Positions 13,320 to 30,141 of a stretch of DNA of 64,000 nucleotides are shown one piece after another. The notes beneath the pieces were generated by a model. It saw only the letters and a list, made by a program, of their open reading frames with translations. It was not told the origin of the DNA and made no database searches. The stretch's first letter is position 1. Each line of letters starts with the position of its first letter. This stretch comes from a virus: positions 1 through 64,000 of the IMG/VR virus record IMGVR_UViG_3300029787_000005; one strand, 5' to 3'. The position numbers and the translations under genes were made by a program.

Positions 13320-14869
13320 TCTTCACAGAGGTTAGTTATCCAGGTTTTGGTAGATATGCAGGAACATATAGAGTAGCCACAGAACTTAGAGACTCAGGAT
13401 ACACAGTCCAGGTCATTGAGTTCTTTACTCGTATGGATAAAGATGAACTACTCAAAGTCATTGATAAGTTTGTTACAAAGGAGACCAAGCTAGTTGGTTT
13501 CTCTTGCACATTCTTTTTACCTAAAGCTATGGGCTGGGGTGGAAGATCAAAGATTAGAAAACTTATCAATACACAAAATATTGATGATGCACTAGATGAA
13601 ACAACACCATCTCCAGGAAGTAAAGTATCAACTGAAAGACATATGTCTACTGATGCAGCAACAGTCTCTGGTGTATCTAATCTGTTGTTTGGTAGAGATG
13701 ATATGTTTGAGATATTTGATCGTATCAAAGAAAGAGGTAATCCACGTATGATGGTTGGAGGTGCCAGAGCTTATCTTGCTGAAGATCCTCCATTCAACTC
13801 TGAGATAGACTATGTTATAAGAGGCCAAGCTGATACATCTGTTGTAGCTTTAGCTGATCATATATTCTATAATGCTGATCTCAAGATAGGATATCAAAAA
13901 GGCAAATGTAAGATTATTGAAGAAAAGGATTATCCGGTAGATGATTTTACTATATCAAGAATAAGATATACCGATAGTGATATCATTATGCCAAAAGAAG
14001 TGTTGCCTTTAGAACTTGCTAGAGGTTGTATATTCAAATGTGCATTCTGCTCATACAATCTTATTGGTAAGAAAGTTTGGGAGTTCAATAGAAACCCAGA
14101 TCTGGTTGCAAGAGATCTCCAAGAGATGTATGATAAGTATGGATCCACAGGATTCATGGTGTGTGACGACACGTATAACGACTCTATAGACAAGGTAGAG
14201 AGGTTCCATAAGGCATTCACTAGCCTGAACTTCCAACCCACCTTCTCAACGTATGCTAGGGCGGATATGATGGTGTCTAAGCCAGAGACAATGCCTTTAT
14301 TATATGAGAGTGGTATGCGTAGTGTGTTCTTTGGTATTGAGACATTGAACCACCGAGCTGGTAAAGCTATTGGTAAAGGTATGGATCCTGAAAAGATAAA
14401 GGATGGGTTATTTAAAGCTAAAGCTACTCCTGGCTGGAATGAGATCGTAACAACATCTGGTTTTATTATTGGATTGCCTTATGAGACTGAAGAGTCTATA
14501 CATGAAACATATCAATGGTTATTGAGAGATGATTGTCCACTAGATTCATTTAGTCCTACAGCTCTAACAATCAGTCCAGATTCTTCAATGGGATTGAATA
14601 TGGCTAAATACGGATATCAATGGGATGAGAATGGTAGCTGGTATAGTGAATGGATGACAGAGCAACAAGCTAAAGATCTGGCAATGTATTATTCCAGACA
14701 GCTTGTGAAGAAGAAAAGAGCTAGGTTCCAGTTTACATTCTTTGGCAGGATGCAAAATATTGGATGGACATTACAAGATTTTGATAATGAAAGATTCACT
14801 AATGATGAAAGTGACAGACGTAAAGATGTTGTTCAATATAACTACTTAGAACGATTAATGAACTTGTGA
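13307..14869 (+). CDS. B12-binding-type radical SAM enzyme, 520 aa
   Basis: N-terminal residues about 1-200 have the Rossmann-like layout of a B12-binding domain (YPGFGRYAGTYRVATELRDSG, then VGFSCTF and MMVGGARAY), but the DxHxxG cobalamin motif is not evident. The radical SAM core starts at ELARGCIFKCAFCSY with Cys241, Cys245 and Cys248 for the 4Fe-4S cluster. Later GIETLNHRAGKAIGKG and GFIIGLPYET are typical of this subclass. Members do methylations, rearrangements and methylthiolations. It differs from the six N-Cys proteins at 19248-27916. Coupled to the preceding gene. Confidence 0.8.
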   Translation: MQIVIFTEVSYPGFGRYAGTYRVATELRDSGYTVQVIEFFTRMDKDELLKVIDKFVTKETKLVGFSCTFFLPKAMGWGGRSKIRKLINTQNIDDALDETTPSPGSKVSTERHMSTDAATVSGVSNLLFGRDDMFEIFDRIKERGNPRMMVGGARAYLAEDPPFNSEIDYVIRGQADTSVVALADHIFYNADLKIGYQKGKCKIIEEKDYPVDDFTISRIRYTDSDIIMPKEVLPLELARGCIFKCAFCSYNLIGKKVWEFNRNPDLVARDLQEMYDKYGSTGFMVCDDTYNDSIDKVERFHKAFTSLNFQPTFSTYARADMMVSKPETMPLLYESGMRSVFFGIETLNHRAGKAIGKGMDPEKIKDGLFKAKATPGWNEIVTTSGFIIGLPYETEESIHETYQWLLRDDCPLDSFSPTALTISPDSSMGLNMAKYGYQWDENGSWYSEWMTEQQAKDLAMYYSRQLVKKKRARFQFTFFGRMQNIGWTLQDFDNERFTNDESDRRKDVVQYNYLERLMNL

Positions 14870-14875
14870 GGTGAC

Positions 14876-15751
14876 ATGAAAGTAGATCAGTGGGAAGTGT
14901 GTATGAATGCAGCTCAAGAAATTGTTCTTAGCAGCTCAAACGGTATATTGCATGATCAAGTTGATCAGTGGCACAATAAAGGATATTTCATAGTTAAGAA
15001 TGTCAATCTACCAGGAGAGGTCAATTCACTAAGAGATGCTTCAAGACAAGCAGAAGACATCAATGACGATAGATTTTTTGGTGAATATGATGGACGTGCA
15101 AGGACAGTTTGGGCACCACATTGGGAAGACTGGGGTAAGTGGTTAGAACACTATGCAAGGAATAATCCAGTACTTCCTGTAGTTAAATATTTAATGGGTG
15201 GCCAGGTTTATATAAACCAATTGCATTTCAACTACAAGCTAGCCAATGGTGGTGGAGCATTTGGATGGCATTCTGATTATACTGTATTCAAGTATCATGA
15301 TAAATGGCAGAATATGAATGGACTTAGTGTGTTCTTCATGCTTGATGATATGAATGAGACTAATGGTCAGTTTCATTTTGCACCAGGGAGTCATAAAGTT
15401 GATCTTCAGTTACAAGAAGGTTTTGATTTACCAGATAGCTTTACTCATGCAGAATATGGTGACAATCCTAGCCATGATAGAGGAAGCACGTCTTCCGATA
15501 CATTCACTGCACCCAGTTATGTTGGAGGACCTGCAGATGGTCCTACATACCCAATTGAAAGAATAGAAGCCAAAGCTGGTGATGCTTTAGTCTTTCATTC
15601 TAATGTGTGGCATATGAGTCCTAAGAATCTTTCAAAGAAGGATCGACGTACTTTCTGCGTATGTTACAATCACATAGACAATAAAACGCAGTGGCCTATC
15701 ACAAATGACCGTAAGAAATGGATGACTCTTAAAGACTTCACTCCTATTTAA
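14876..15751 (+). CDS. Phytanoyl-CoA dioxygenase (PhyH)-family hydroxylase, 291 aa
   Basis: Clear PhyH layout: GYFIVKNV near the start, WHSDYTVF with iron ligands His132 and Asp134, a GQFHFAPGSHK strand, and GDALVFHSNVWHMSPKN with distal His246, followed by RRTFCVCY with the 2OG-binding Arg. Family members hydroxylate lipids, amino acids (ectoine) or natural-product intermediates. It sits between two groups of biosynthetic enzymes and just upstream of the glutamine-riboswitch-like leader, so a tailoring role in the same pathway is plausible. Confidence 0.82.
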   Translation: MKVDQWEVCMNAAQEIVLSSSNGILHDQVDQWHNKGYFIVKNVNLPGEVNSLRDASRQAEDINDDRFFGEYDGRARTVWAPHWEDWGKWLEHYARNNPVLPVVKYLMGGQVYINQLHFNYKLANGGGAFGWHSDYTVFKYHDKWQNMNGLSVFFMLDDMNETNGQFHFAPGSHKVDLQLQEGFDLPDSFTHAEYGDNPSHDRGSTSSDTFTAPSYVGGPADGPTYPIERIEAKAGDALVFHSNVWHMSPKNLSKKDRRTFCVCYNHIDNKTQWPITNDRKKWMTLKDFTPI

Positions 15752-15836: not shown

Positions 15837-16043
15837 GTGAGATATGCAATCTTAAACCAATATCTTAAAAAAGAACGTACAAAAAAAAGCCACATAGCTT
15901 TATTGAAAACTCGAGGTAATTTATTATGTCAACAGAACAGCAAGGTGGGATCAAACCTGAAATATTTCCTGACCACGTTGAGCTTGAATTTACCTTTACT
16001 GAAAACGAGCTATCGTTCAGGGATGCTTTTCTCGAGACGTTAA
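15837..16043 (+). CDS. Possible riboswitch-controlled downstream peptide, up to 68 aa
   Basis: A GTG at 15837 lies five bases after a perfect AGGAGG. The first about 30 residues are basic (LKKERTKKSH) and lie outside other genes; the rest overlaps the PP-loop gene in another frame for 118 bases. Short frames after Downstream-peptide RNAs are known and give the class its name. The peptide may act as a leader that couples translation to the next gene. Whether the whole frame is translated to 16043 is uncertain. Confidence 0.45.
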   Translation: MRYAILNQYLKKERTKKSHIALLKTRGNLLCQQNSKVGSNLKYFLTTLSLNLPLLKTSYRSGMLFSRR

Positions 16044-16885
16044 TTGATATTGCCAGCAAGACCACAAAAGAGTTAGTAATATGCTTTAGTGGTGGAGCAG
16101 ACTCACAATTAGTAAAGTGGGGTTTCGATTATCTCGAAATCCCACATAGAGTCATGCATCAAAGATATCTATTAAATGGTGCTTATCTAAACTGGGAAGA
16201 AGCTGGTTTAGTTCCACCAGAGACAGAGTTTGTAGATATAGATGTAAAGAAGTATCAGAAGTCTAAATTCTTTCAAGATAGATTTGTTAAAGAGTTTCCA
16301 ACTAGTGTGCACTCATCTATTCAATGTGATCTAGATGGTAAGTACGATCCCAATGATATATTCTTAGTTAGTTGTTCATCACCATACAACATATACAAAT
16401 TTGGTTGGAGAGAAGACAAGAGATGGTCTTTTGCTCCATCTAATCTATGGAAGACAATTGGTTTCAGAGAGTATGATTACACTGGTGTATTCTATGATAA
16501 TCCATCAGTGTGTTATGCCCTGTTTGATGATCTTTACAAACAACAATCAAGAGAGTTGGAACAAGGTAAGTGGGAATATTGGTACAAGCATACGTTTTTT
16601 GAACATCACTTTCCAGAAGTGTCTGACAAGATAAAGCAGAAGCTCAATAACGATAAGTTTCCATACTTTTCAGATCTAGTATATGATAGAACAAGAGGCA
16701 TATATCAATATGATATAAATGATAATAGGTACTTGTATGACTGTTATCCTCAAAGGTCATTTATTGGTGTGGAGATGGAAGAGTTTTTTGAGCGTATAGA
16801 AAAAGGAACTACAGTAATGAAGTTTAGTCGTGAATGGTGTAGGTTGGGAGATCAAATAGTTGTTGACACTCCAATCATCGAATGA
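15926..16885 (+). CDS. PP-loop ATPase, asparagine-synthetase-like, 319 aa
   Basis: ICFSGGADSQLVKW (about residues 52-65) is the PP-loop signature SGGxDS of N-type ATP pyrophosphatases, which adenylate a carboxyl or carbonyl before amide, thiol or ring formation. The remainder lacks an obvious glutaminase domain, so ammonia or another nucleophile would come from elsewhere. The ATG has a GAGGT site ten bases upstream. It is the first full gene after the glutamine-riboswitch-like leader and overlaps a second, QueC-like PP-loop gene. A glutamine-sensing leader before amide-forming enzymes is logical. Confidence 0.7.
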   Translation: MSTEQQGGIKPEIFPDHVELEFTFTENELSFRDAFLETLIDIASKTTKELVICFSGGADSQLVKWGFDYLEIPHRVMHQRYLLNGAYLNWEEAGLVPPETEFVDIDVKKYQKSKFFQDRFVKEFPTSVHSSIQCDLDGKYDPNDIFLVSCSSPYNIYKFGWREDKRWSFAPSNLWKTIGFREYDYTGVFYDNPSVCYALFDDLYKQQSRELEQGKWEYWYKHTFFEHHFPEVSDKIKQKLNNDKFPYFSDLVYDRTRGIYQYDINDNRYLYDCYPQRSFIGVEMEEFFERIEKGTTVMKFSREWCRLGDQIVVDTPIIE

Positions 16886-17513
16886 TAGACTTGTTCAAAT
16901 ACCCTATAGGCAAGAACAGAGGGTTGGAATACTCTTATCAGGGGGTATGGACTCAGGTCTTCTACTTAACTTGCTTGATATTGCTTGTACTGATTGCACT
17001 TTTGTAATCTTTACAATGGACAAGCCTGATGGCAGTCTAAAGTATTCTGCAGACATTATACAAAAGAGTAAGTTAAGAAACAAATGGGAACAACACATAG
17101 TTAAAGGTGGAAAGGAAAATGAGATTGCTTCGTTGGGTATTACAGGTAAAACTGCATTTAGACACATTCTTGATGATTATATCACCGACTTGGATGTACT
17201 GTACAGCGGCAATACTTCTAATCCTCCTCAATCTCTTATGTCAACTACCGCACCCCCAGACAGGTCAGTAGCAAACAAAGCTGTAGAAAAGTATGATAAG
17301 TTTGAAATACCATTCATTGAATTGAACAAAGCTGAAACTATTGATCTGGTAAAGAGGCTTGATATAGAATGGTTGTTTGAAGCCTCACATACGTGTACTG
17401 AGTTTGATGTTGGCAGATGTTATCAACAAACAGAAACAATACATTGTTGGCAGTGTATGGAAAGACAATGGGGCTTCATAGAAAACAATATGAGAGATCC
17501 CGGTACAAAATAG
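16860..17513 (+). CDS. QueC-like PP-loop enzyme, 217 aa
   Basis: LLSGGMDSGLLL holds the PP-loop at residues 27-32. Four Cys at 179, 187, 196 and 199 (SHTCTEFD, RCYQQ, HCWQCMER) match the C-terminal zinc site of QueC, which makes 7-cyano-7-deazaguanine from a carboxylate, ATP and ammonia. QueD, QueE and FolE homologues are not recognisable in this window, so queuosine or deazaguanine DNA synthesis is not shown. Start is TTG 16860 (or 16863). An ATG at 16882 in an ATGA overlap is in the wrong frame to reach the PP-loop. Confidence 0.65.
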   Translation: MLTLQSSNDRLVQIPYRQEQRVGILLSGGMDSGLLLNLLDIACTDCTFVIFTMDKPDGSLKYSADIIQKSKLRNKWEQHIVKGGKENEIASLGITGKTAFRHILDDYITDLDVLYSGNTSNPPQSLMSTTAPPDRSVANKAVEKYDKFEIPFIELNKAETIDLVKRLDIEWLFEASHTCTEFDVGRCYQQTETIHCWQCMERQWGFIENNMRDPGTK

Positions 17514-17542: not shown

Positions 17543-17573
17543 ACAATTATAATTGCTTGATAAGGAGTATATG

Positions 17574-17825
17574 ATGGCAAAAGACGATACAGATATGAGT
17601 CATATCGATCAAAGGCTATTTAAGATGGCTGCGATGATTGATACAACAATCCGATATAACTGTGATGGTATGGAACTCGATGAGTTTGAGCAAAACTATC
17701 TCAATGTCTGGTTGAAGAAAGAACGGGATCCTTTGATTGTCGTTATTCTAGCAACACTAACTGGTGCTAGAGATCCTAATGCGGACGTTGATGGTGAAGT
17801 GGAAGCAGAAGCAGATGCAGCATGA
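17574..17825 (+). CDS. Small acidic hypothetical protein, 83 aa
   Basis: Not recognised. First gene of the radical SAM operon. An AAGGAG site precedes tandem ATGs at 17571 and 17574; the second has better spacing. A helical N-terminal part with one Cys (about residue 33) is followed by a hydrophobic strand and a low-complexity acidic tail (EVEAEADAA). It overlaps the carbamoyltransferase start by four bases. Its small size and place suggest a regulator, carrier or substrate protein, but nothing proves this. Confidence 0.6.
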   Translation: MAKDDTDMSHIDQRLFKMAAMIDTTIRYNCDGMELDEFEQNYLNVWLKKERDPLIVVILATLTGARDPNADVDGEVEAEADAA

Positions 17826-19255
17826 GGGTACTCGGCTTCAGTGAAGGATTTCATGATGCCGCTGTAACTGTCTTAGATGGTAGTGAGATACTTTTTGCTG
17901 GTCACAGTGAAAGGTTCTCCAAAGTGAAAAATGACAAATACGTTTGTCAGGAGTTAAAAGATTATGTTAAAGAATACACGCACGGACTACGACCTCCTGA
18001 AATTGCTTTCTATGAACGGCCTTTTATCAAACGGACCCGTCAAGCGTATGCGGGGCAATGGAAGTCAGCTTTTAAAGCACGTCACCTTAACTATAACTAC
18101 GATCATTGCTTTAATCATCATCTTTCTCATGCTGCTGCCGCATTCCAATGTTCTCCATTCAGTAATGCAAATGCGCTTGTAGTAGATGCTATAGGAGAAT
18201 GGGATACCGTTAGTATATGGTATTGTGAATATGTTAACGAGAAAGCTGTATACAAAAAAGTAAAGTCTATGAGGTATCCCACTTCAATAGGTTTATTCTA
18301 TTCTGCTGTGACAGCTAGAGTAGGACTCAAACCTATGGAGGATGAATATATTACTATGGGTATGGCAGCATATGGCAAACCCAACAAAGAACTATATGAA
18401 GAATTAAGACGTCTAATGTTGAAGAAGAATCTTCACAGAGGAATGAATGGTTTACTATCAGAATATGATGATGTTGATATAGCATTCAATGCACAAAAGC
18501 TGGTAGAGAATATTCTAAAGACATTTGTAAACAAGTTAGACAAAAAACTTCCTATGGTATATGGTGGAGGTGTTGCGCTTAATAGTGTTGCAAATGGATT
18601 AATTTTGAGAAACAAACAACACTATGTGTTTCCTAATCCTGGTGATGCTGGTTCTTCATTAGGTGCAGCTGCATTGGTTCATAGGAATAAGATAAATTAT
18701 ACTCATTCATTTCATGGTTATAAATTATCAATGTTGACTGTTGATCAAATAAAACATGTTGTGGATGTGTTAGAGAAAGGAGAGCCAGTTGGTATTGCAG
18801 CTGGCAAAGCAGAATTTGGACCCAGAGCTTTAGGCAATAGAAGTTTATTATGTGATCCAAGAACATCAGAAAATAAAGATAGAGTTAATGACATAAAGAA
18901 ACGTCAGAAGTTTAGACCATTTGCTCCATCTATACTTTCTGAACATGCATCAAAATATTTTAGAACATTTAGACAACATGATTACAGCTATATGCAGAAT
19001 GTTGTTAAAGCTAGAGATTCATCATTCCTGGCTACCATGCATGAGGATGGTTCTGCCAGAGTGCATACAGTTGATCGATCTACCTGGTGTTATTCACCAT
19101 TGAGACATATACTTGAAATATGGTATGAAAGAACTGGATGTCCTACATTATTGAATACAAGTTTGAATATTAAAGGTCAACCTATGGTTAATGATAGTGC
19201 TGATGCAAAAGCATTTGCAGACGAATATGGAGTAGAAGTAGTTTGCAATGGATGA
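17822..19255 (+). CDS. NodU/CmcH-type carbamoyltransferase, 477 aa
   Basis: Shows the family's landmarks: a GFSEGFHDAAV start, SERFSKVK, the metal-binding HHLSHAAAAF (about residues 100-109), VVDAIGEWD, YGGGVALN, then the C-terminal FGPRALGNRSLL and LNTSLNIKGQP. These enzymes use carbamoyl phosphate and ATP to put a carbamoyl group on a hydroxyl of a sugar or antibiotic (nodulation factors, tobramycin, cephalosporins). Full length for the two-domain form, allowing a shorter N-terminal part. Starts in an overlap with the small acidic gene and overlaps the first tandem radical SAM gene, linking carbamoylation to that pathway. Confidence 0.88.
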   Translation: MRVLGFSEGFHDAAVTVLDGSEILFAGHSERFSKVKNDKYVCQELKDYVKEYTHGLRPPEIAFYERPFIKRTRQAYAGQWKSAFKARHLNYNYDHCFNHHLSHAAAAFQCSPFSNANALVVDAIGEWDTVSIWYCEYVNEKAVYKKVKSMRYPTSIGLFYSAVTARVGLKPMEDEYITMGMAAYGKPNKELYEELRRLMLKKNLHRGMNGLLSEYDDVDIAFNAQKLVENILKTFVNKLDKKLPMVYGGGVALNSVANGLILRNKQHYVFPNPGDAGSSLGAAALVHRNKINYTHSFHGYKLSMLTVDQIKHVVDVLEKGEPVGIAAGKAEFGPRALGNRSLLCDPRTSENKDRVNDIKKRQKFRPFAPSILSEHASKYFRTFRQHDYSYMQNVVKARDSSFLATMHEDGSARVHTVDRSTWCYSPLRHILEIWYERTGCPTLLNTSLNIKGQPMVNDSADAKAFADEYGVEVVCNG

Positions 19256-20651
19256 ACGTATTGGGCTTATCAAAGATAAGTTAGCTGAGCAAGTTAGTTC
19301 AACTTTTTGTTTGGCTAAGTTTCATCACGTAACAATATATCTACAAACTGGTGAGACTCACAGTTGTTATCATCCACCACCACATCACATCCCGCTTAAA
19401 GAACTTGAGCGGGATGCTTCAGCTCTACATAACACTGAACAAAAGAAACAAGAACGTAAATTGATGCTCGAAGGTAAGAAACCTAAGGGCTGTCAGTATT
19501 GTTGGAACGTTGAGTCATTAGGTAAAGAGTATGTCAGTGACAGACATGAACGTAATGCATCTATTCATAGAGATGAGAGAGTAGATGAAATAGTCAAGCA
19601 TGGCTATGATCATCATATAAATCCAGAGTACATTGAGATAAGTTTTGGTAATGAATGTCAGTTTAAATGTGGATACTGTCATCCAAAAGCAAGTAGTAGT
19701 TACTGGAAAGAGATAGAGAAGTTTGGTCCATATGATATGGTTGAAAACCATAGACTGGATATTGATTGGATCAAACTATTCAAAAGAGAAGAAGAGAACC
19801 CATATGTCGATGCTTGGTGGGAATGGTGGCCTGAGGTAAGAAAGACTCTTAGTATTTTGAGGATAACTGGTGGTGAGCCATTACTTCAACAAAGTACGTG
19901 GAAGTTGTTTGAGAACATCTCTAAGTATCCGCTACCAGATCTTGAGATCAATACAAATAGTAATCTTGGTATGACTAATAGAATAGTTAAGAGATTATCT
20001 AAGTATGTAAAAGAGTTTGAAGATGAAAATAAAATCAAAAGATTCAAACTATTCACTTCATTAGATACATGGGGTTCAAGAGCTGAGTATATAAGAACTG
20101 GTCTGGATCTAAAAGTATGGGAAGAAAATTTCCATACATATTTAACGGAGACTAGTGCCAACATTACATTTATGATGACGTTTAATATATTGACCGTCAC
20201 CACATTTAAGAGTTTGTTAAAGAAAATATTAGAGTGGAGAGAACAGTACCCTGATGTGACAAATGGGGCAGGACAGCTACATCGTGTTCGTTTTGATACA
20301 CCATATCTCAAAGAACCATTACAGTATGATATGAATCTGTTACCCAAGAATCAGTTTATGCATTATATGAATGACTCTCTACAATTTTTGAAAGATAATG
20401 TCAAAGAAGGTGATCCAACAAAGTTTAGTGACCTTGAGTATTGGAAGTTTAAGAGAGTTGTTGATTACATGCAACAAACAAACTATTCCAAAGAAAGAGT
20501 ATTAGAAGGTCGTATTGATTTTTATAATTGGTTTAATGAACTTGACAGAAGACGGAATACAAATTTTTACAACACTTTCCCTGAAATGAAGGAGTTCATG
20601 GATCAATGTCAGTCGTTAGCAAAAGCCCAGAGCAAAAGCAAGAACTCTTAA
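19248..20651 (+). CDS. Radical SAM enzyme with N-terminal Cys motifs (member 1 of tandem cluster), 467 aa
   Basis: The core Cys are 137, 141 and 144 (ECQFKCGYCHPK), followed by LRITGGEPLLQ for SAM binding. Before the core lies a variant of the cluster's N-terminal motif, FCLAKFHHVTIYLQTGETHSC (read as FCLAKFH and THSCYHPP), then GCQYCWNVE. Such paired Cys could hold an auxiliary Fe-S cluster, as SPASM/twitch domains do, though placed N-terminally. It starts inside the carbamoyltransferase gene. The C-terminal 60 residues are Lys-rich and helical. Substrate unknown. Confidence 0.82.
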   Translation: MDERIGLIKDKLAEQVSSTFCLAKFHHVTIYLQTGETHSCYHPPPHHIPLKELERDASALHNTEQKKQERKLMLEGKKPKGCQYCWNVESLGKEYVSDRHERNASIHRDERVDEIVKHGYDHHINPEYIEISFGNECQFKCGYCHPKASSSYWKEIEKFGPYDMVENHRLDIDWIKLFKREEENPYVDAWWEWWPEVRKTLSILRITGGEPLLQQSTWKLFENISKYPLPDLEINTNSNLGMTNRIVKRLSKYVKEFEDENKIKRFKLFTSLDTWGSRAEYIRTGLDLKVWEENFHTYLTETSANITFMMTFNILTVTTFKSLLKKILEWREQYPDVTNGAGQLHRVRFDTPYLKEPLQYDMNLLPKNQFMHYMNDSLQFLKDNVKEGDPTKFSDLEYWKFKRVVDYMQQTNYSKERVLEGRIDFYNWFNELDRRRNTNFYNTFPEMKEFMDQCQSLAKAQSKSKNS

Positions 20652-21967
20652 ACGAACGTAAGAGCTTCTGCATATTACCTTGGGTTCACTTATATGCAGA
20701 ACCAGATGGAACAGTATTTCCATGTTGTACAGCAACACCTTTATGGGATGGTGAAATGGGTGAGCCTGGGACTAGGACTGATCCTTACTTTGCAACATCT
20801 AATATAAAAGACAAGTCTATATTAGAGGCTTTGAATACTCCAAATTTCAATAAACTCAGATTAGATATGTTGAATGGAGAAGAATTACCAAGTACATGTA
20901 CAAGATGTAAGAGATTTGAAGATGTTGGTAATGATAGCTACAGACATTATGGTAGACGGCACTTTGGTCAGTTTATAGATGCTATTGACAATACAAATGA
21001 AGATGGAAGTTTAAAAAAACTTGATCTAAAGTTTTTAAATGTTAGATTCAGCAATCATTGTAACATGGCGTGTCTTACTTGTAATGCTCAATGGAGTACT
21101 ACTTGGTATGATAAGTCTCCTTGGTTATGGAAAGATAAAACAAGAACAAAACTTTTAGATCTCAATGACAACTCTAAGTATCCAATCTGGGAAGAGATAG
21201 AACCTTATTTGCACACAGTAGAAAAGATATACTTCACCGGTGGTGAACCGCTAATGATGCCAGCGCATTGGAAGATACTCAAGTACCTGGTTGATAATAA
21301 TCTTGAAGAGAAAGTAGAGTTGCAATACAATACTAATCTAAGTAGGTTAAAATTTGGTAAACAACATGCAATGGATTACTGGCCAAAGTTTAAAGAGATT
21401 GATCTTGGACTTAGTATTGATGGTGTTGAAAAAGATATAGAAATTATAAGATGGGGTACAAAGTGGAACGATGTTGTGGCTAACATCAAAGAGATACAAA
21501 AGTATGATAATATAAGATACTCAATAGATTCAGTTATCAGTATCTTTAATATATACCACCTACCAAAAATGGTCACCTACTTTCATAATGAAAAGTTAAC
21601 AAAATACAATACCAATACAGTTGCAAATATAGCTCATGAACCTGAGCCTTTGAGTCTCACATCTATTCCTTCAGATATGAAACCAACAGTTGAAGCATTC
21701 TTAAAAACAGAATGGGAAAAGCTACCAATAGAGATTAGATCAAAATATTTGAACACAAACTGGCAGACGTGTATAGACTATATGTATGCTCGTGATACAT
21801 ACAAACCTGGAAAACTTTCTGAGCATATAAACGCTACTCTGAATTTTGCAAAGGATTCATTATTAGAACATATACCATTGGTGAAAATGATATACGAACG
21901 TGATGCTCCATTTGATAGATGGAACAAGAATATTGGAGAATCTGGTGGCTATAAAGAACCCATCTGA
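20606..21967 (+). CDS. Radical SAM enzyme with N-terminal Cys motifs (member 2), 453 aa
   Basis: N-terminal FCILPWVHLYAEPDG and FPCCTATP (about residues 21-43) plus TCTRCKRFE (about residue 99) form a SPASM-like set of Cys before the core. Core Cys are 152, 156 and 159 (NHCNMACLTCNAQW), with YFTGGEPLMM about residue 209. Closest visible relative is member 3, sharing YAEP-G-x-x-FPCC and WSTxW. AAGGAG lies eleven bases before the ATG. The order of motifs suggests one auxiliary and one SAM cluster. Confidence 0.85.
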   Translation: MSVVSKSPEQKQELLNERKSFCILPWVHLYAEPDGTVFPCCTATPLWDGEMGEPGTRTDPYFATSNIKDKSILEALNTPNFNKLRLDMLNGEELPSTCTRCKRFEDVGNDSYRHYGRRHFGQFIDAIDNTNEDGSLKKLDLKFLNVRFSNHCNMACLTCNAQWSTTWYDKSPWLWKDKTRTKLLDLNDNSKYPIWEEIEPYLHTVEKIYFTGGEPLMMPAHWKILKYLVDNNLEEKVELQYNTNLSRLKFGKQHAMDYWPKFKEIDLGLSIDGVEKDIEIIRWGTKWNDVVANIKEIQKYDNIRYSIDSVISIFNIYHLPKMVTYFHNEKLTKYNTNTVANIAHEPEPLSLTSIPSDMKPTVEAFLKTEWEKLPIEIRSKYLNTNWQTCIDYMYARDTYKPGKLSEHINATLNFAKDSLLEHIPLVKMIYERDAPFDRWNKNIGESGGYKEPI

Positions 21968-23159
21968 TAACGAAAATTTTTGCATACTTCCATGGATGCA
22001 TCTGTACGCAGAACCAAACGGTGATGTGTTTCCATGCTGTACGGCTGTACCATATCCAGGAATAGAAGAACTAAAAGGTAGTCTCAAAGACAACACATTG
22101 GCAGAAATATATCATTCTGATGAGTGGAATAAGCTCAGAAAAGATATGATGGAAGGCAAGAGAAATGATGCTTGTACCAGATGTTGGCAGTTTGATGATG
22201 CAGGAGGATCTTCATATAGAAAACATAACAACAATCTATTCAAGAAACATTTTAATCTTGTAGACTTAACAGCTGAAGATGGTAGCATAGAAGAGTTTCA
22301 TTTTAAAGCTATCAATATAAGGTTCAGTACAGAATGTAACTTTGCATGTTTAACTTGTGGTCCTTCTTGGAGTACTGGATGGAACAAATATATCATTGGA
22401 CCAAAAGGACCAAATCTTAAACTAGAAGACAATACAAAAGAGTCTGTGTGGGAACAGATCAAAGAACATTTACCAACGGTTGATGAGATATACTTCACCG
22501 GTGGTGAACCATTAATGATGCCTGAACATTATAAGATTCTAGATTATCTAATACAACATGGTCTTACAGAAATGACTCTTAGATACAATACTAATATGAG
22601 CAATCTTAACTTCTACAAATACAACGTAGTTGATAAGTGGAAGATGTTTAAGAAGGTTGAAGTAGGAGCAAGTATTGATGCATATGGTGAAAGAGCAGAG
22701 TTAATTAGACTTGGTACTAAGTGGCAACAAGTTGAAGATAATTTATTATCTCTCAAAGGTATTGACAACATTAACTTAGGTATTGATAGTGTTATAAGTA
22801 TACTGAATGTTGATCATATTCCTAAGTTTCACATCTATCTTGAACACAGGGGAATTGTTGACGAAACAAGTATAATGTCGTATAATATAGCATTCAGCCC
22901 ACCAGAATTCAATATACAAGCTATACCAAGAAGTATAAAAGGGGAGATTGAACAATACCTAGACATACACCTAGAGAACTACTCTGGACGGATGACCCAT
23001 CCCAGATGGGGATTCCCTCAAATCATATCTTTTATGAAGGAGAAGGATACGTGGGATCGATCCAAGTTAGTTCACAATCTTCATTCAAGATTCAGACATG
23101 TATACAAGGAGATGACGGAGAACATTCCTATTATCAAACAGTGTCTACGACATGACTAA
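21945..23159 (+). CDS. Radical SAM enzyme with N-terminal Cys motifs (member 3), 404 aa
   Basis: FCILPWMHLYAEPNG and FPCCTAVP open the protein, then ACTRCWQFD, then core Cys 131, 135 and 138 (TECNFACLTCGPSW) and YFTGGEPLMM. A GTG at 21945 (MAIKNPSD) with GGAG six bases upstream is preferred to an earlier GTG or ATG near 21900 because it places FC-x-x-PW near residue 12 as in member 4. Very similar in layout to member 2, consistent with duplication. Confidence 0.83.
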   Translation: MAIKNPSDNENFCILPWMHLYAEPNGDVFPCCTAVPYPGIEELKGSLKDNTLAEIYHSDEWNKLRKDMMEGKRNDACTRCWQFDDAGGSSYRKHNNNLFKKHFNLVDLTAEDGSIEEFHFKAINIRFSTECNFACLTCGPSWSTGWNKYIIGPKGPNLKLEDNTKESVWEQIKEHLPTVDEIYFTGGEPLMMPEHYKILDYLIQHGLTEMTLRYNTNMSNLNFYKYNVVDKWKMFKKVEVGASIDAYGERAELIRLGTKWQQVEDNLLSLKGIDNINLGIDSVISILNVDHIPKFHIYLEHRGIVDETSIMSYNIAFSPPEFNIQAIPRSIKGEIEQYLDIHLENYSGRMTHPRWGFPQIISFMKEKDTWDRSKLVHNLHSRFRHVYKEMTENIPIIKQCLRHD

Positions 23160-24408
23160 AGAGGCTTATCTAAACAACAAAACATTTTGTATGCTACCAT
23201 GGACTCATTTGCATATGTGGCCTAATGGTGAAACCTATCCTTGTTGTTTAGCAGATTCAAGAATGCCAATTGGAAGTTCTCATGATAATACCATACAAGA
23301 GTTATGGAACAATGATAAGATGAGATCTCTTAGAAATGCTATGCTTGAAGGAAGAGAGAGTCAAGAGTGTAGAAGATGTTATGAGCAAGAAAGATCAGGT
23401 ATACAAACACTAAGAATGTCTAGCAATAAAGAGTTTGCTGATCATTGGTGGAAGGTAGAAGAAACAGAAGAAGATGGAAGTGCTGGTATGGTGAATATGG
23501 CATATCTTGATATCCGTTTCTCAAACCTATGCAATCTAAGATGCCGTACTTGTGGACCTAACTTCAGTACTAGCTGGTATGATGATCATGTTAAGATGCA
23601 TGGTGATCCAGGTATACCTCAACTACTTAAAGTTGGTAAAGATATGGATACATTCTTCAAAGAACTTGAACCTATGTTACTTGATGTGGAGAAAGTATAC
23701 TTTGCAGGCGGTGAAGCAATCATAACAGAAGAACATTATAGAGTATTAGACTATTGGTTGCATCATAAAATGACTGATGTCAAGTTAAGCTACACTACTA
23801 ACTTTACTAACATGAGATTCAAGAAGAAGACTATCTTTGAATATTGGAATTCATTTGAGACTGTAGAAGTGGCTGCTAGTTTAGATGGTAATCATGAACG
23901 AGGTGAATATCTTAGAAAGAATCTAAAGTGGGATAGAGTTGTACAAAATAGAAAAGATATGATGGAACAATGTCCTAATGTTAGCTTTTGGATAACACCT
24001 ACAGTTAGTATATTTAATGTTTTCAATGTATCTGAGTTTCATAAAGAGTGGGTTGATCTAGGATTGTTAGAACCAGAGAACTTTAGAATCAATCCATTGT
24101 TAGATCCTGAGTTTTATAGAACACAATGCCTACCACGAAAATGTAAAAAGATGGTAGAACAAAAGTATCTTGAGTGGATAAAGGAGCTTAGACAATATGG
24201 TAGCAGAGTTGATAAAGTCATAAGCGACTATGAAAGTTTGATTCATTTTATGTGGGAAGAAGATAAAACTGAACTGCTGACTGTATTCTTTGATAAGGTA
24301 ATTCAATTAGATAAGCTCAGAGGTGAATCATTCTTTGACACGTATACTGAGTTTGCCAAGTTGAAAGAGTACTATTTTCACAATGAGTTTTGGAAGAATC
24401 GTGGCTGA
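23152..24408 (+). CDS. Radical SAM enzyme with N-terminal Cys motifs (member 4), 418 aa
   Basis: FCMLPWTHLHMWPNG with YPCCLADS, then ECRRCYEQE, then core Cys 127, 131 and 134 (NLCNLRCRTCGPNF). The SAM-binding element reads YFAGGEAI, with Ala in place of the usual Pro of GGEP, a small deviation. The ATG overlaps the previous stop by eight bases. Contains a long C-terminal helical part that may shape a peptide or glycan site. Confidence 0.83.
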   Translation: MTKEAYLNNKTFCMLPWTHLHMWPNGETYPCCLADSRMPIGSSHDNTIQELWNNDKMRSLRNAMLEGRESQECRRCYEQERSGIQTLRMSSNKEFADHWWKVEETEEDGSAGMVNMAYLDIRFSNLCNLRCRTCGPNFSTSWYDDHVKMHGDPGIPQLLKVGKDMDTFFKELEPMLLDVEKVYFAGGEAIITEEHYRVLDYWLHHKMTDVKLSYTTNFTNMRFKKKTIFEYWNSFETVEVAASLDGNHERGEYLRKNLKWDRVVQNRKDMMEQCPNVSFWITPTVSIFNVFNVSEFHKEWVDLGLLEPENFRINPLLDPEFYRTQCLPRKCKKMVEQKYLEWIKELRQYGSRVDKVISDYESLIHFMWEEDKTELLTVFFDKVIQLDKLRGESFFDTYTEFAKLKEYYFHNEFWKNRG

Positions 24409-25612
24409 GACATTTTGCATATATCCATGGACAAATATTCATACAAATACTGATGGTAGATGTAAGCTATGCTGTAACATCTACACAGAAGATTATATAA
24501 CAATTGATGATAAGTATGCTATTCTAGGTCATCAAGAGTTTGATGAAATATGGCATGGTAAGTATATGACTGATGTTAGAAAGGCAATGTTACAAGGTGA
24601 ACGTATTGATGCATGCCACAGATGTTATGAGCATGAAGAGAAAGGATTGGAAAGTTCAAGACAATGGGCAAACGCAAACTTCTTCACTGAGAGTTTAGAT
24701 CCAGTATTTGATCCAAATCTACTTGAACTAAGACTTGGTAATGTATGTAATTTAAAGTGTAGCGGATGCTGGGCTGTAAGTTCTGATCAATTGTATAACG
24801 AAAGAAAAAGGATACTTGATAATGAGAAGGTTCCTCAATGGTTACAGAATGTATGGCGACATGAGTTGGATAGTGTTGATCAGTTTGATTATGATTGGTT
24901 CAATACACCAATGTTTGACAAATTCATTGATAGAGTGGCGCCTAATCTCAAAAGATTGTATCTTACGGGGGGAGAACCAACGCTCATCCAAAAAAATAGA
25001 GAGATCCTAGACAAGTTAGTAGAAGTTGGTAACAATGAATGTTATGTTTGTTGGACTACTAATCTTACTAATTTTCCAGATGAGTTTTATGATAAATTAG
25101 AATTCTTTGATGAGTCAGAGATCCAGATGAGTATTGATGGGTATGAAATGACTAACTCATATGTAAGATATCCAACCAATTGGAAATCAGTAGAAAAGAA
25201 CTTTGCAAAGGCTCAACAGTTAACTGAGAAGTGTATACTAAAAGTATACTTTGTATATCAAGCATGGAATGTATATGATGTAACAAAAGTAATAAGATGG
25301 ATAGAACGTAATCAAAAACGTAGAGTAGACTTTGTTCCTATCTTTCTTGAAAGCCCAGATTATATTCACAGCTGTGTGTGGCCAGAAGAGATAAGAACAG
25401 ATGTAGTGAACAAACTACAAGCATTTGATACACAATATGAAGGTGCAATACGTAATATAATAAACTATACAAAAAATACAGATAAGTATAAAGGCGAGCT
25501 TATCAATAAAATGAGAACGTATATACACTTCCTTGATAAGTATAGGAAGTATAAATTTGAAGATGTGTTTCCAGATATGGTAAAAGTGATATCTCATGCC
25601 CACCCTGACTAA
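24383..25612 (+). CDS. Radical SAM enzyme with N-terminal Cys motifs (member 5), 409 aa
   Basis: FCIYPWTNIHTNTDG with KLCCNIYT, then ACHRCYEHE, then core Cys 122, 126 and 129 (NVCNLKCSGCWAV) and YLTGGEPTLI. The ATG at 24383 overlaps the previous gene; a GTG at 24401 (MAETFC) with GGAAGA upstream is an equally good start. The insert between core and C-terminus differs from members 2-4, so its substrate may differ. Confidence 0.83.
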   Translation: MSFGRIVAETFCIYPWTNIHTNTDGRCKLCCNIYTEDYITIDDKYAILGHQEFDEIWHGKYMTDVRKAMLQGERIDACHRCYEHEEKGLESSRQWANANFFTESLDPVFDPNLLELRLGNVCNLKCSGCWAVSSDQLYNERKRILDNEKVPQWLQNVWRHELDSVDQFDYDWFNTPMFDKFIDRVAPNLKRLYLTGGEPTLIQKNREILDKLVEVGNNECYVCWTTNLTNFPDEFYDKLEFFDESEIQMSIDGYEMTNSYVRYPTNWKSVEKNFAKAQQLTEKCILKVYFVYQAWNVYDVTKVIRWIERNQKRRVDFVPIFLESPDYIHSCVWPEEIRTDVVNKLQAFDTQYEGAIRNIINYTKNTDKYKGELINKMRTYIHFLDKYRKYKFEDVFPDMVKVISHAHPD

Positions 25613-26558
25613 GATTGTACCAGCCAAAGAAAAATGGTTGAGTATTGTTTGGCAAGTAAATGACTTTTGTAACTTTCGTTGCACTTATTGTAATGAAGGA
25701 AACTGGGGTGGTAGGTTTAAACATGAGGATGACATTGATAAGATCCTCACAACATTAGACTATATCATAGATCTGTATCAGGATCGTGGTTATCGCTACT
25801 TTAAACTGTTTCTAAGCGGTGGTGAGCCTACTCTATGGCCAGGACTCATACCAACCATAGAGCTGTTTAGAGAGCGTGTAGAGTTCCCTGGAAGCTGTGT
25901 AGGTGTCAATACAAACTTATCAAGAGGTCTGAAGTGGTGGCAAGAAAACTACACCTTGTTTGATGATATAGTAGCAAGCTATCATGCAGAATTTACAAAG
26001 GACGACAGATACTTTGAGAACTATGATTGGTTGTGTACAAGAATAGCATATATGTGTGCCAGAGTGATGATGCACAAAGACAAATGGGACCAATGTATTG
26101 CTATGACAGAGAGACTCAAAGAATGTACAAACCACATTATTGATTACGTGCCAGTGTTAGATTCTCTTAGACCAGACACAGAAGAATATCATTATGATGA
26201 GGACTATCAGATTGAGTTTTTCAAATCTAATCCAGATGTAAAGACAACCAATTTTACTATATTCAAAGATCCAAATTACGCTTATGCAAACATGATAGTT
26301 GATGGTGAAGAGATGCCAATAGAATCAAATATGATAATGCAAAATGGTTGGAACTTCTGGAAGGGTTGGGAATGTAACATACAAGACAGTCTCCACATAT
26401 ATCCAGATGGAAGAATAAGACAAGCTAGCTGTGGTGTAGGACCAATAGTTGGTAATATAGCTGGCAAGTTTGATTCAAGTAATATCAAACCAATAATTTG
26501 TCCGAAGCATCACTGTCATTGTGCTGCTGATTTTAATATTGCAAAAGGTCCAATATAA
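25596..26558 (+). CDS. Radical SAM enzyme with C-terminal Cys motifs (member 6), 320 aa
   Basis: The core comes at the very start: Cys25, Cys29 and Cys32 (DFCNFRCTYCNEG), then LFLSGGEPTLWP. Unlike its neighbours, the extra Cys are at the C-terminus (WECNIQDS, IRQASCG, ICPKHHCHC, about residues 255-305), the normal SPASM-like arrangement. GRF and IYPDGRIRQ recall SPASM strands. ATG overlaps the previous stop; its own stop overlaps the next ATG (TAATG). Confidence 0.83.
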   Translation: MPTLTKIVPAKEKWLSIVWQVNDFCNFRCTYCNEGNWGGRFKHEDDIDKILTTLDYIIDLYQDRGYRYFKLFLSGGEPTLWPGLIPTIELFRERVEFPGSCVGVNTNLSRGLKWWQENYTLFDDIVASYHAEFTKDDRYFENYDWLCTRIAYMCARVMMHKDKWDQCIAMTERLKECTNHIIDYVPVLDSLRPDTEEYHYDEDYQIEFFKSNPDVKTTNFTIFKDPNYAYANMIVDGEEMPIESNMIMQNGWNFWKGWECNIQDSLHIYPDGRIRQASCGVGPIVGNIAGKFDSSNIKPIICPKHHCHCAADFNIAKGPI

Positions 26559-27916
26559 TGTATTGTTATTATGCTATGAACGGTTTGAGTATAAACAACT
26601 TTGGTAGAGTAAGACCATGTTGTGTGGCAAAAACATTTAAGTCAATATCAGGAGCTCCTGGTGTAATTAACTCTCATGACTTAGACTATATCAATACGTG
26701 GCCAATCAAAATGAACAATGGTAAGTTTGGATTCCAACCACAGATTCAAGCAATGAATCATGTTAAAGAACTTCTTAATGATCCTGTGTTGTGTCATCTT
26801 AGAGAGAAGCTAAAGAAGAATAGAAGACCTGCAGAATGTGAAAGATGCTTCTATGTTGAGGACCAAGGCGGAGTCTCATATAGAATGGATGCAAACGAAA
26901 CTCACAAACATCTTATATATGAAGAATCCATCCAAGAAAAAGATGGGATAATGATTGATATGGAGCATATATCATACTTGGATATTACTCTTGGTAATGT
27001 GTGCAATTTACAATGCAAGACATGCAATCCATGGAGTAGTCACAACTGGATAGAAGAAGCGCAAGTTATACCTCACCAAGAACACAAACCAGAATACATT
27101 CCTTACTTAAAGCAAGGTAGAGAACAGCCTTGGTTTGTAAAAGCATTCAGAGAAAGATTCTTTGATCCTATACTTGGTCAGATAAGAACAATCAACTTTC
27201 TTGGTGGAGAGCCACTAGTTGTTAAAGAACACTATGAGTGGTTGAAGCATATCATAAACAAAGGATGGGCAAAGAATAAGACACTACAATATACATCAAA
27301 TGGAACTACAATACCTAACGCATTGATTGATTTGTGGTCACATTTTGAGCATGTAAATCTTGGTATAAGTATTGACGCCATAGGTGATAAAGCATACTAT
27401 ATAAGGCATCCTAGTAAATGGTCAGTGATTGAGAAAAACTTCGACAAACTAAGACAAAGGTGTAAAGAGGTTAAGCATATCAATGTGCAGTTGCATACAA
27501 CGGTAAGTATGCTTAACATCTTAGACATCGGCGAAGTGTATGAGTTTTCGAGGAATCAATATCAGAAATTTCACTATTTCGATGGAGAAGCCAGGACTCC
27601 TCACGGTTATATTAACATACTTCCTCATATCAACATTGTTGACTTCCCTAGGTATTACCATATCCGCCATCTACCTACTGAGTTGAAACACCAAGCAGTT
27701 AAACAAATAAAGTTGACTTATGATCGAGTTAAAGGTACAATAGAAAATCATTGGGAACAAAGTAATCTCATCAATCTAAATAACTTAGCAGAAATTATTA
27801 TGGAAGATCGTGATCCTCATATGTGGGATCAATTCTTAGATGTGCAAAGAGCGTCAGATAAATTTAGAAAATTAAAAGGAAGCGATTACCTACCATGGAT
27901 GAGTCAATATGTCTGA
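26558..27916 (+). CDS. Radical SAM enzyme with N-terminal Cys motifs (member 7), 452 aa
   Basis: Starts MYCYYAMNGLSINNFG with VRPCCVAK, then ECERCFYVE, then core Cys 149, 153 and 156 (NVCNLQCKTCNPWS) and FLGGEPLVV. The N-terminal FC-x-x-PW is replaced by YCYYAM, but the G-x-x-x-PCC and C-x-x-C spacing remain. Coupled to member 6 by TAATG and to the SGNH-like gene by an eight-base overlap. Last of the tandem run. Confidence 0.83.
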   Translation: MYCYYAMNGLSINNFGRVRPCCVAKTFKSISGAPGVINSHDLDYINTWPIKMNNGKFGFQPQIQAMNHVKELLNDPVLCHLREKLKKNRRPAECERCFYVEDQGGVSYRMDANETHKHLIYEESIQEKDGIMIDMEHISYLDITLGNVCNLQCKTCNPWSSHNWIEEAQVIPHQEHKPEYIPYLKQGREQPWFVKAFRERFFDPILGQIRTINFLGGEPLVVKEHYEWLKHIINKGWAKNKTLQYTSNGTTIPNALIDLWSHFEHVNLGISIDAIGDKAYYIRHPSKWSVIEKNFDKLRQRCKEVKHINVQLHTTVSMLNILDIGEVYEFSRNQYQKFHYFDGEARTPHGYINILPHINIVDFPRYYHIRHLPTELKHQAVKQIKLTYDRVKGTIENHWEQSNLINLNNLAEIIMEDRDPHMWDQFLDVQRASDKFRKLKGSDYLPWMSQYV

Positions 27917-28811
27917 AGAAGTAGAATGGAGTCACATAACCGAAGCTAACAAGTCTACTTGGCCAAATTGGGATGATTATAATGGAGTGTTTATATCTCT
28001 TGGTTGCAGTCACACAGCCGGAAGTGAGATTGATAGTATGGGTGATAATGACGAACAGAGACAAAAATCTTATGGTGCTAAACTAGCAGAGAAGTTTGGT
28101 TACCAGCATTTGAACTATGCACAGTGTGGTGGTAGTAATCATAGAATATTTGATCAGTTCTGTGCAATCATGGCCGACATAGAATCTGGATATGGTTACT
28201 ATGCTCCTGTAAGAGAAGACTTCAACTATTTCTTTCTAATAGGATGGACTAGTTTGAATAGACTTGATCTGAGATACAAACAAGAAGACGATAATGAGTG
28301 GAAACAAGCTGGTCATTATGGTGACCGAGCTGATAACAAATATATTCCAGCTACTGTTGGTACTAATCCACTTATGATTAAAGATAAAGAGATACGTAAG
28401 GCATTTGATATGGCTTATATCTATGCAGATGATGTGATTGCTGCTAATAGACTAGCATCTTATATCTTTGCAATACAAAATATCATGATATCGTCTCCAT
28501 ATAAATACTATATGTTCAATGCGATTGAAAACTTTTACGATACACATACATCTCGTAAAGACCTTAATCAATCGTACAATCCAATTAGGTTTCCCCCATT
28601 TGTAGGAAACCAAAAGATTTATCAGAATATTGATACAAGGTTTTACTACAAGCCCATGGACAAACATTTCAACTATTATAGATGGTGCACTGAGGTTAAA
28701 GGTCATTCACCAAAAAGCCAAACATATTGGCATCTTGGAGAACAAGCTCATATAGATTGGGCAGAACATATTTACCCGGAGATAATTAATGCTTATCCAG
28801 ATTTGGCATAG
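27909..28811 (+). CDS. SGNH-like hydrolase or acyltransferase, 300 aa
   Basis: VFISLGCSHTAGSE near residue 28 is a block I-type motif (GCS-x-T in place of GDS). NYAQCGGSNHRIFD (about residue 70) resembles the following Gly/Asn block, and YWHLGEQAHIDWAEHI near residue 277 carries the expected C-terminal His. The family acts on acyl esters, often on sugars. It directly follows the radical SAM run with an overlap, so it probably serves the same product. The first SGNH gene is at 3195. Confidence 0.65.
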   Translation: MSEEVEWSHITEANKSTWPNWDDYNGVFISLGCSHTAGSEIDSMGDNDEQRQKSYGAKLAEKFGYQHLNYAQCGGSNHRIFDQFCAIMADIESGYGYYAPVREDFNYFFLIGWTSLNRLDLRYKQEDDNEWKQAGHYGDRADNKYIPATVGTNPLMIKDKEIRKAFDMAYIYADDVIAANRLASYIFAIQNIMISSPYKYYMFNAIENFYDTHTSRKDLNQSYNPIRFPPFVGNQKIYQNIDTRFYYKPMDKHFNYYRWCTEVKGHSPKSQTYWHLGEQAHIDWAEHIYPEIINAYPDLA

Positions 28812-28908: not shown

Positions 28909-28911
28909 GTG

Positions 28912-29163
28912 ATGGCACTATATACTATCTACACCAGAGATCTATGTGGCTTTTGTGATGCAGCAAAGGCACTTATGGATTCATTGAATCTTCCATACGA
29001 AGAATTTAATCTTGAATCACATCCACACCACAGAGATGAGTTACTTTCAAAGGTACCTCCTGGAACTACTACTGTTCCACAAATATTTGTCGGTGACCTA
29101 CACATTGGTGGCTTTGATGACTTCAAAGTATATGTAGAGGAATCAGTACAAAGCGGAAGATAA
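28912..29163 (+). CDS. Glutaredoxin, 83 aa
   Basis: Thioredoxin-fold glutaredoxin with the active-site CGFC (Cys12, Cys15), cis-Pro strand TTVPQIFV and glutathione-binding GGFDDF. Normal length. Reduces disulfides such as ribonucleotide reductase with glutathione; monothiol and some dithiol members also carry Fe-S clusters. In an operon of iron-sulfur enzymes either role could matter. ATG 28912 has GAGGAA six bases upstream; a GTG immediately before is less likely. Confidence 0.88.
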   Translation: MALYTIYTRDLCGFCDAAKALMDSLNLPYEEFNLESHPHHRDELLSKVPPGTTTVPQIFVGDLHIGGFDDFKVYVEESVQSGR

Positions 29164-29169
29164 TTTATT

Positions 29170-30141
29170 ATGGTAAAATTGACAATAATGGACAGTGGTC
29201 CAGAAAAAAATGAGTTGAATAAAAATGCTTGGGGTGGTACTGAGCTTATGCAAAATAGATTGTATAAGGAGATGCCAAAAGATCTGATTGATCAATTCCA
29301 AATTATTTGTTCTAGACCTCGTAAGTTAAAAGAAGATAAGAAGAGGATACTTTGGTGTCATGATCTTGCACAAGATCCTGAGGTAGAACATTTAAAAGAT
29401 GGTGGTCATGAGAAGTATGACAAACTTGTGTTTGTATCTCATTGGCAATTTCAAGACTACATGTATCATCTTGGTATACCTCATTCATCAGGTTATGTTC
29501 TTCAAAATGCTATTGATCCAATAGATGAACATGAAAAACCAACAGATGAGATCAACCTCGTATACTTTTCAACACCACATAGAGGGTTGGATATATTGGT
29601 TCCTGTATTTGAGGAGATGAGAAACAATCACTTTCAGAGTATAAAGAAACCAGTTAACCTACATGTATACTCTAGTTTCAAATTGTATGGGTGGCCCGAG
29701 AGGGACAAAGAACACAAAGCTCTTATTGATAAGTGTAAGAACACTGAAGGTATTCATTATCATGGAGCTGTACCAAATGCAGAGATGAGAGAAAACTTGA
29801 AGAAGATGCATATCCTTGCATACCCATGTGTATGGCCTGAGACAAGCTGTATGGTTCTTATGGAAGCTATGTCAGCAAAGTTATTGTGTGTTCATAGTTC
29901 ATTTGCTGGGTTACCAGAGACAGCTGCTAACTGGACTATGATGTATCCAGTACATGAAGTAGCTAATGATCATGCTCAGATCTTTGCACAGAATTTGTTT
30001 AACGCAGTATCATTAGTAGATGACAGTGCATTACAAGATAGGTTACATATGCAGAAACAATATACTGATGCATTCTACAATTGGGATGTAAGAGCTATGC
30101 AGTGGAAAATATTTTTGGAAGGCTTAGCAAATGGGGGTTGA
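29170..30141 (+). CDS. GT4-like glycosyltransferase, 323 aa
   Basis: GT-B fold features: an N-terminal Rossmann part with GGTELMQNRLYKE, VFVSHWQFQDY and NAIDP, and a C-terminal part with ILAYPCVWPETSCMVLMEAM, where the PETSC-x(n)-EA motif is the nucleotide-sugar binding signature of GT4. The N-terminal acceptor domain is short. It would transfer a sugar from an NDP-sugar. Position after the radical SAM/carbamoyl/SGNH genes suggests glycan or glycoside assembly. Confidence 0.8.
   Translation: MVKLTIMDSGPEKNELNKNAWGGTELMQNRLYKEMPKDLIDQFQIICSRPRKLKEDKKRILWCHDLAQDPEVEHLKDGGHEKYDKLVFVSHWQFQDYMYHLGIPHSSGYVLQNAIDPIDEHEKPTDEINLVYFSTPHRGLDILVPVFEEMRNNHFQSIKKPVNLHVYSSFKLYGWPERDKEHKALIDKCKNTEGIHYHGAVPNAEMRENLKKMHILAYPCVWPETSCMVLMEAMSAKLLCVHSSFAGLPETAANWTMMYPVHEVANDHAQIFAQNLFNAVSLVDDSALQDRLHMQKQYTDAFYNWDVRAMQWKIFLEGLANGG

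Follow-up and report, generated by a model that had tools for sequence, protein, structure and literature searches.

Seven tandem radical SAM genes in a T4-like phage: a recurrent viral cassette and a candidate role in glycan tailoring

Why a phage should carry seven radical S-adenosylmethionine (SAM) enzymes in a row is the question raised by the stretch of DNA analyzed here, which comprises bases 1 to 64000 of a 128,318-base virus record (IMGVR_UViG_3300029787_000005) and is termed the window. A baseplate-wedge-like protein encoded in the window matched 2,329 phage records, including those of Caulobacter phage Cr30 and Pelagibacter phage HTVC008M, indicating that the source is a T4-like phage. 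Radical SAM enzymes perform chemistry beyond that of ordinary enzymes, and aquatic phages give approximately 9 kb, together with iron-sulfur (Fe-S) helper genes, to seven of them. The seven genes, termed A to G, occupy positions 19248 to 27916 and form a single conserved operon, found again in far more than a hundred uncultivated phages alongside glycosyltransferase-like genes. Tentatively, and with slightly less than even confidence, A to G are read as one pathway of radical tailoring that would act on a glycan or glycoconjugate.

Arrangement and auxiliary cysteine sites of genes A to G

Genes A to G are consecutive open reading frames (ORFs) on the + strand, every one overlapping its successor, and these overlaps suggest co-transcription as one operon. 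Each product contains a single C-x3-C-x2-C core and a GGEP motif (GGEA in D), in agreement with the first-pass annotation, which had reported seven tandem overlapping radical SAM genes with such motifs. Ratios of nonsynonymous to synonymous substitution (dN/dS), calculated for each gene against two relatives, were 0.02 to 0.15, indicative of purifying selection and hence of all seven genes having been kept functional. The presence of orthologous cassettes in other viral contigs ruled out an assembly artefact.

Six of the seven products (A to E and G) fall within the NCBIfam entry NF033640 ("twitch domain-containing radical SAM protein", N_Twi_rSAM), a family without an assigned function, and matched it over their full length with scores of 297 to 395 bits (curated cut-off, 170 bits). 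In each of the six, a C-x9-15-G-x4-C ... C-x2-C pattern is present upstream of the core; the cysteine pattern of SPASM/twitch domains has been given as CX9-15GX4C-gap-CX2C (PMC6231123). Among 451 family members, 418 had this N-terminal pattern ahead of the core, and no shuffled sequence had it. In A (19248 to 20651; 306 bits and an orthologue alignment), the twitch cysteines are C21, C40, C82 and C85 (19308 to 19502) and the core cysteines C137 to C144 (19656 to 19679). The twitch of B (20606 to 21967; 338 bits) lies at 20669 to 20908 and that of C (21900 to 23159; 348 bits) at 21981 to 22184; C probably begins at a GTG at 21945, judging from the matching position of the start in relatives. 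The corresponding segments lie at 23188 to 23379 in D (23152 to 24408; 395 bits), at 24416 to 24625 in E (24383 to 25612; 297 bits and an alignment) and at 26564 to 26848 in G (26558 to 27916; 305 bits and an alignment).

Independent evidence for the nature of this site came from Pfam and from structure prediction. The SPASM profile PF13186 exceeded its threshold in the N-terminal portion of B (5.9e-10), C (1e-10), D and E; G fell below it (18.5 versus 21.5 bits) and A had no match to this profile. The N-terminal 86 positions of a profile of D orthologues could be aligned to the BtrN twitch, which is C-terminal (E = 2e-4). An AlphaFold2 model of D (predicted local distance difference test score [pLDDT], 94.5) contained a beta-hairpin (residues 19 to 22 and 27 to 29) between C13 and C31 and helices preceding C73 and C76, a predicted secondary structure that agrees with a twitch fold and would be compatible with an auxiliary Fe-S site. 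The proposals of the first-pass annotation that six of the seven enzymes carry cysteine motifs N-terminal to the core, and that these form a SPASM/twitch-like site, were therefore upheld. The "reversed" placement that it had called unusual is real but is already the mark of a named family; no paper naming an N-terminal twitch was found in the literature search. A viperin identity (NF038283; cut-off, 180 bits) was rejected, the best scores being 42.8 bits for B and 33 bits for F, as were QueE identities and those of maturases of ribosomally synthesized and post-translationally modified peptides, the family scores of A to G being below cut-off.

Gene F (25596 to 26558) is of a different type, with an N-terminal core, and lies outside NF033640 (21.9 bits versus the cut-off of 170). 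It had been singled out as the exception that lacks such a cysteine set; the absence of an N-terminal set was confirmed, but auxiliary cysteines that had been overlooked follow the core. These are C260, C279, C302, C307 and C309 (26373 to 26522), invariant among 35 diverse orthologues, and the C-terminal pattern was present in 98 of 98 members of the F family. The spacing, G-x6-C and C-x4-C-x-C, is a variant of the classic C-terminal twitch, so that F would carry its auxiliary site on the conventional side. The AlphaFold2 model of F (pLDDT, 90.5) folds like BlsE, viperin, BtrN and the spectinomycin enzyme SpeY and also like anSME and SuiB. The first four act on sugar or nucleotide substrates.

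Recurrence and age of the cassette

Viral contigs were searched with alignments of orthologues, an alignment of the six paralogues having too few conserved stretches. At least 573 stretches of viral contigs contained an A orthologue and 216 contained F, while neither gene had a match among 50,697 GenBank phage records. Orthologous cassettes ranged from 99% down to 27 to 39% identity and retained the D-E-F-G order. In a survey of 156 non-redundant viral loci, the order of orthologues was maintained, 423 of 430 adjacent radical SAM pairs overlapped or were no more than 10 bp apart, and a twitch enzyme preceded F in 116 of 119 cases. Loci held 1 to 10 radical SAM genes within the stretch examined, most frequently 4 or 5.

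A tree of 86 sequences placed A, D, E and G in separate cross-phage clades, those of A and D including Bdellovibrionota sequences, which indicated that the duplications are mostly ancient. B and C were sisters in the window and in locus L019, with the single gene of L021 falling outside the pair. The tree was quickly built and has some long branches (G of L024 and L025, n of L069 and L072), so that its deep branching is uncertain. On this sequence evidence, six of the seven slots appear old, the sister pair of B and C being the only recent duplication. The suggestion that the seven genes had been amplified by duplication and had then diverged thus stood insofar as they are related duplicates, and the tree rejected a recent amplification of the whole set.

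The remark that no described phage pathway with this many such enzymes was known has to be qualified, as the window phage is not the largest case. The T4-like viral genome TARA_ERS488813_N000010 has 12 radical SAM genes, an A-type carrier, a glutaredoxin and paaD (PMC5332604, Nishimura 2017) and so resembles the window phage in its many radical SAM genes and in the same trio of Fe-S helpers; it differs in that the genes were reported solely as a count under Fe-S metabolism, without mention of a tandem operon, of domain order, of neighbours or of a pathway (PMC5332604). Among the contigs surveyed here, up to 21 radical SAM matches were present across whole contigs (G166 and G167). Radical SAM cassettes have also been noted in pelagimyophages, inside a host-recognition cluster with tail fibres and glycosyltransferases (PMC7029224). 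That mention is a single sentence without family or function (PMC7029224), and the window cassette, unlike those, is placed apart from the tail-fibre region of its genome. Neither the domain order nor the occurrence of T4-like phages rich in radical SAM genes was therefore new. What is new are the organized and conserved multigene system, the F partner, the fusions described below, the ancient split into orthologues and the scale; none of these was found described in a literature search that covered few subscription journals.

Three further viral or virus-like loci were observed, two of them smaller sets in GenBank phages. Vibrio phage K566 (L219, 11959 to 18701) encodes four twitch radical SAM enzymes interleaved with glycosyltransferase-like genes, and Vibrio phage QD01 (L233), with V. 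natriegens Vmax as the recorded host, has three annotated radical SAM genes. A contig binned as bacterial (L195, Rhodobacteraceae metagenome-assembled genome [MAG] NAT686) combines phage structural-type genes with a cassette and is probably a misbinned phage. The cassette order, the fusions and these two vibriophages make the function of the N-terminal-twitch family a testable question.

Tandem arrays of NF033640 members also occur in Bdellovibrionota and in an Elusimicrobia genome, where they resemble the phage cassettes in having side-by-side members, D-F neighbours (L184 and L186) and relatives of A; multiplication is therefore not phage specific. A strong match was present in 41 of 144 Bdellovibrionota genomes, and single genomes reached 31 matches (Bdellovibrionia) and, counting matches of all strengths, 86 (Elusimicrobia). 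In the Elusimicrobia MAG CAIRTQ01 (G006, L220 to L224), many tandem NF033640 genes are fused to long tetratricopeptide repeat (TPR) arrays (frames of 600 to 1221 aa), and on a Bdellovibrionia contig (C192 of G002, L225 and L226), approximately 15 genes for twitch radical SAM enzymes occupy 33 kb and adjoin genes for Asp/Asn-hydroxylase and sulfatase.

Candidate substrates of the proposed pathway

The reading preferred here is that of a common and previously undescribed phage system: between four and seven radical SAM enzymes with a permuted twitch, orthologues performing one step each, would tailor one glycan or glycoconjugate that alters the infected cell surface or the virion, while the phage aids Fe-S maturation. 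We regard this proposal as close to, though short of, an even prospect. SAM would be bound at the core [4Fe-4S] cluster of each enzyme, and the twitch cluster, presumably the second cluster of each, would hold the substrate or accept an electron. Acting successively or in parallel on one substrate, the enzymes would jointly install fixed radical modifications, e.g., dehydrogenation, epimerization, deoxygenation or cross-linking. The substrate would contain sugar, as a nucleotide sugar, a glycan or a glycosylated protein, and would be built and decorated by the neighbouring glycosyltransferases, carbamoyltransferase and SGNH/DUF6071 proteins. The product is probably a chemical decoration of an unusual kind, a modified sugar of the surface being the most likely, and would probably change the host envelope or the tail fibres. 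Its characterization would bring to light new chemistry of carbohydrates or proteins and perhaps another route by which a phage alters the host surface or escapes rivals.

This reading was suggested by glycosyltransferase-like neighbours and fusions and by the likeness to BtrN, SpeY and BlsE. BtrN and SpeY are twitch radical SAM dehydrogenases of aminoglycoside biosynthesis and have the same twitch cysteine pattern as the cassette enzymes; BtrN, which acts on an aminocyclitol, was matched by the D profile, and both were matched by the fold of F. They differ from A to E and G in having the twitch after the core, in acting singly and in their low sequence identity to these enzymes.

Glycosyltransferase or glycosyltransferase-like genes were present in the same locus both in the window, as the GT4-type gene described below, and in relatives. 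Neighbour content was counted in the 121 loci that span 14 kb or more, without a random-locus control. A glycosyltransferase-like cluster was present in 114 of the 121 loci, an SGNH/DUF6071-like gene in 84 and a B12-type radical SAM gene in 60, and in 105 of 126 cases A directly followed a glycosyltransferase-like gene of cluster 0. A profile match to glycogenin (E = 5e-5) marked cluster 2 as GT8-like. Single chains were found in which a twitch radical SAM enzyme is fused to a cluster 0 domain (L124) or a cluster 1 domain (L028), and two twitch enzymes are joined in one chain in L061 and L065, the two such loci examined, and other loci encode proteins of equal length. Genes for UDP-glucose dehydrogenase and DegT aminotransferase adjoin related cassettes. 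In many relatives, the cassette comes after structural-type genes (clusters 3, 5, 12 and 13), which fits the host-recognition location reported for pelagimyophages.

In the window, a NodU/TobZ-type carbamoyltransferase gene (17822 to 19255, + strand; PF16861, 5.5e-45, and PF02543) overlaps A. This gene order is shared by L014, L015 and L019, and in a single-cell marine virus record a carbamoyltransferase gene is followed by that of a twitch enzyme. Ahead of it lie genes for a QueC-like PP-loop ATPase (16860 to 17513, + strand; PF06508, 4.2e-8) and a possible second PP-loop ATPase (15926 to 16885, + strand), recognized by eye from the motif CFSGGADSQL and without a match in database searches; both are kept as upstream companions in L019. 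Downstream, G is overlapped by a gene for a DUF6071 protein with an SGNH-like GCSHTAGS motif (27909 to 28811, + strand; PF19547, 1.8e-6), the family found most frequently downstream of the cassette. A glutaredoxin gene and a GT4-type glycosyltransferase gene (29170 to 30141, + strand; PF00534, 2.8e-11) follow. The two PP-loop-like ATPases and the carbamoyltransferase upstream, with DUF6071, glutaredoxin and GT4 downstream, are the partners in the window's own group.

Several observations weigh against a sugar substrate. Clusters 0 and 1 are glycosyltransferase-like by motif alone: Pfam gave no match for either except one weak GT10 hit (E = 0.0015, one member of a mixed set), a PDB profile search did not show them to be glycosyltransferases, and cluster 0 aligned with cluster 2 over no more than 24 columns. 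Neighbouring genes vary between phage groups, and glycosyltransferases abound in aquatic T4-like phages in any case. SPASM/twitch enzymes work on peptides more often than on sugars, and the best fold matches of the D model include the peptide enzymes SuiB and anSME and also PFL-AE. The bacterial TPR fusions and Asp/Asn-hydroxylase neighbours hint at protein substrates.

The main rival is accordingly that the enzymes modify proteins or peptides, either tail-fibre or other virion proteins or a phage-made ribosomal peptide, which we consider rather doubtful. Most described SPASM/twitch enzymes are peptide maturases, and the resemblances of the D model, the protein binding suggested by the TPR-fused Elusimicrobia relatives and the position of many related cassettes behind structural-type genes point the same way; the window cassette, however, does not adjoin structural genes, and the fusions seen in phages are to glycosyltransferase-like domains. 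A precursor-peptide search around the cassettes detected no short precursor-like ORF conserved across them, although a precursor could be encoded elsewhere. A 90-aa ORF with an acidic tail and one Cys lies between the QueC-like and carbamoyltransferase genes (17553 to 17825) and was conserved solely in the window's own group (5 loci).

Production of a secreted or intracellular small molecule, aminocyclitol-like or another natural product, is improbable. The carbamoyltransferase, PP-loop ATPase and PhyH-type oxygenase genes of the window would suit it, as would halogenase-, AMP-ligase-, sugar-epimerase- and amidinotransferase-like ORFs, recognized by eye, beside a DegT-like cluster member in L229 to L231, but an envelope or virion target agrees better with the glycosyltransferase-like and structural-type neighbours and with the host-recognition location in related phages. 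L229 to L231 form a biosynthetic island in G167 (IMGVR_UViG_3300047378_000694), a 170-kb viral contig with approximately 21 radical SAM matches, where B12-radical-SAM- and nitroreductase-like genes were also recognized by motif.

It is very improbable that the genes share no pathway and are separate auxiliary metabolic genes, each with its own host substrate, gathered in a hypervariable region. The variable copy number and an order that is sometimes broken are what such a collection would give, but retention of orthologue order at the lowest identities, the near-constant pairing of a twitch enzyme with F, the close packing of adjacent genes and the two-enzyme fusions argue against it. Least probable is hypermodification of phage DNA or tRNA, which could be read from the QueC-like gene at 16860 and from QueE-, QueD- and FolE-like genes at 117940 to 121276, since QueD-type genes accompany a minority of related cassettes (18 loci, cluster 25), such genes are also frequent in T4-like phages that lack the cassette and the twitch proteins have no added nucleic-acid-binding domain.

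Iron-sulfur supply and other genes of the phage

Under the glycan-tailoring reading, approximately 14 clusters would have to be matured during infection, and three phage genes on the + strand may help in this. They encode an A-type Fe-S carrier of the IscA/SufA/ErpA type (40397 to 40747; PDB matches to HI1723, 4e-16, IscA and SufA), a DUF59/MIP18-type helper like PaaD and SufT (2857 to 3198; TM0487, 1.9e-18) and the glutaredoxin next to the cassette (28909 to 29163; glutaredoxin 3, 2e-13). Of 42 large cassette contigs, among them many fragments, 20 encode an A-type carrier.

At least two further radical SAM genes are present in the phage genome, at 13307 and approximately 91,935, plus one that is QueE-like by sequence. 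The first encodes a B12-type enzyme (13307 to 14869, + strand; PF04055, 8e-16) and is followed by the gene for the PhyH-type 2-oxoglutarate oxygenase (14876 to 15751, + strand; PF05721, 1.5e-24). Two adjacent 2OG-FeII_Oxy_5 oxygenase genes lie in the same early region (5368 to 6887). The Que- and FolE-like set at 117940 to 121276 of the genome (L009 to L012), assigned by reading of the sequence, suggests a 7-deazaguanine pathway. Finally, an ORF at 7183 to 8352 encodes a GH113-type glycoside hydrolase domain together with a DUF5648 domain.

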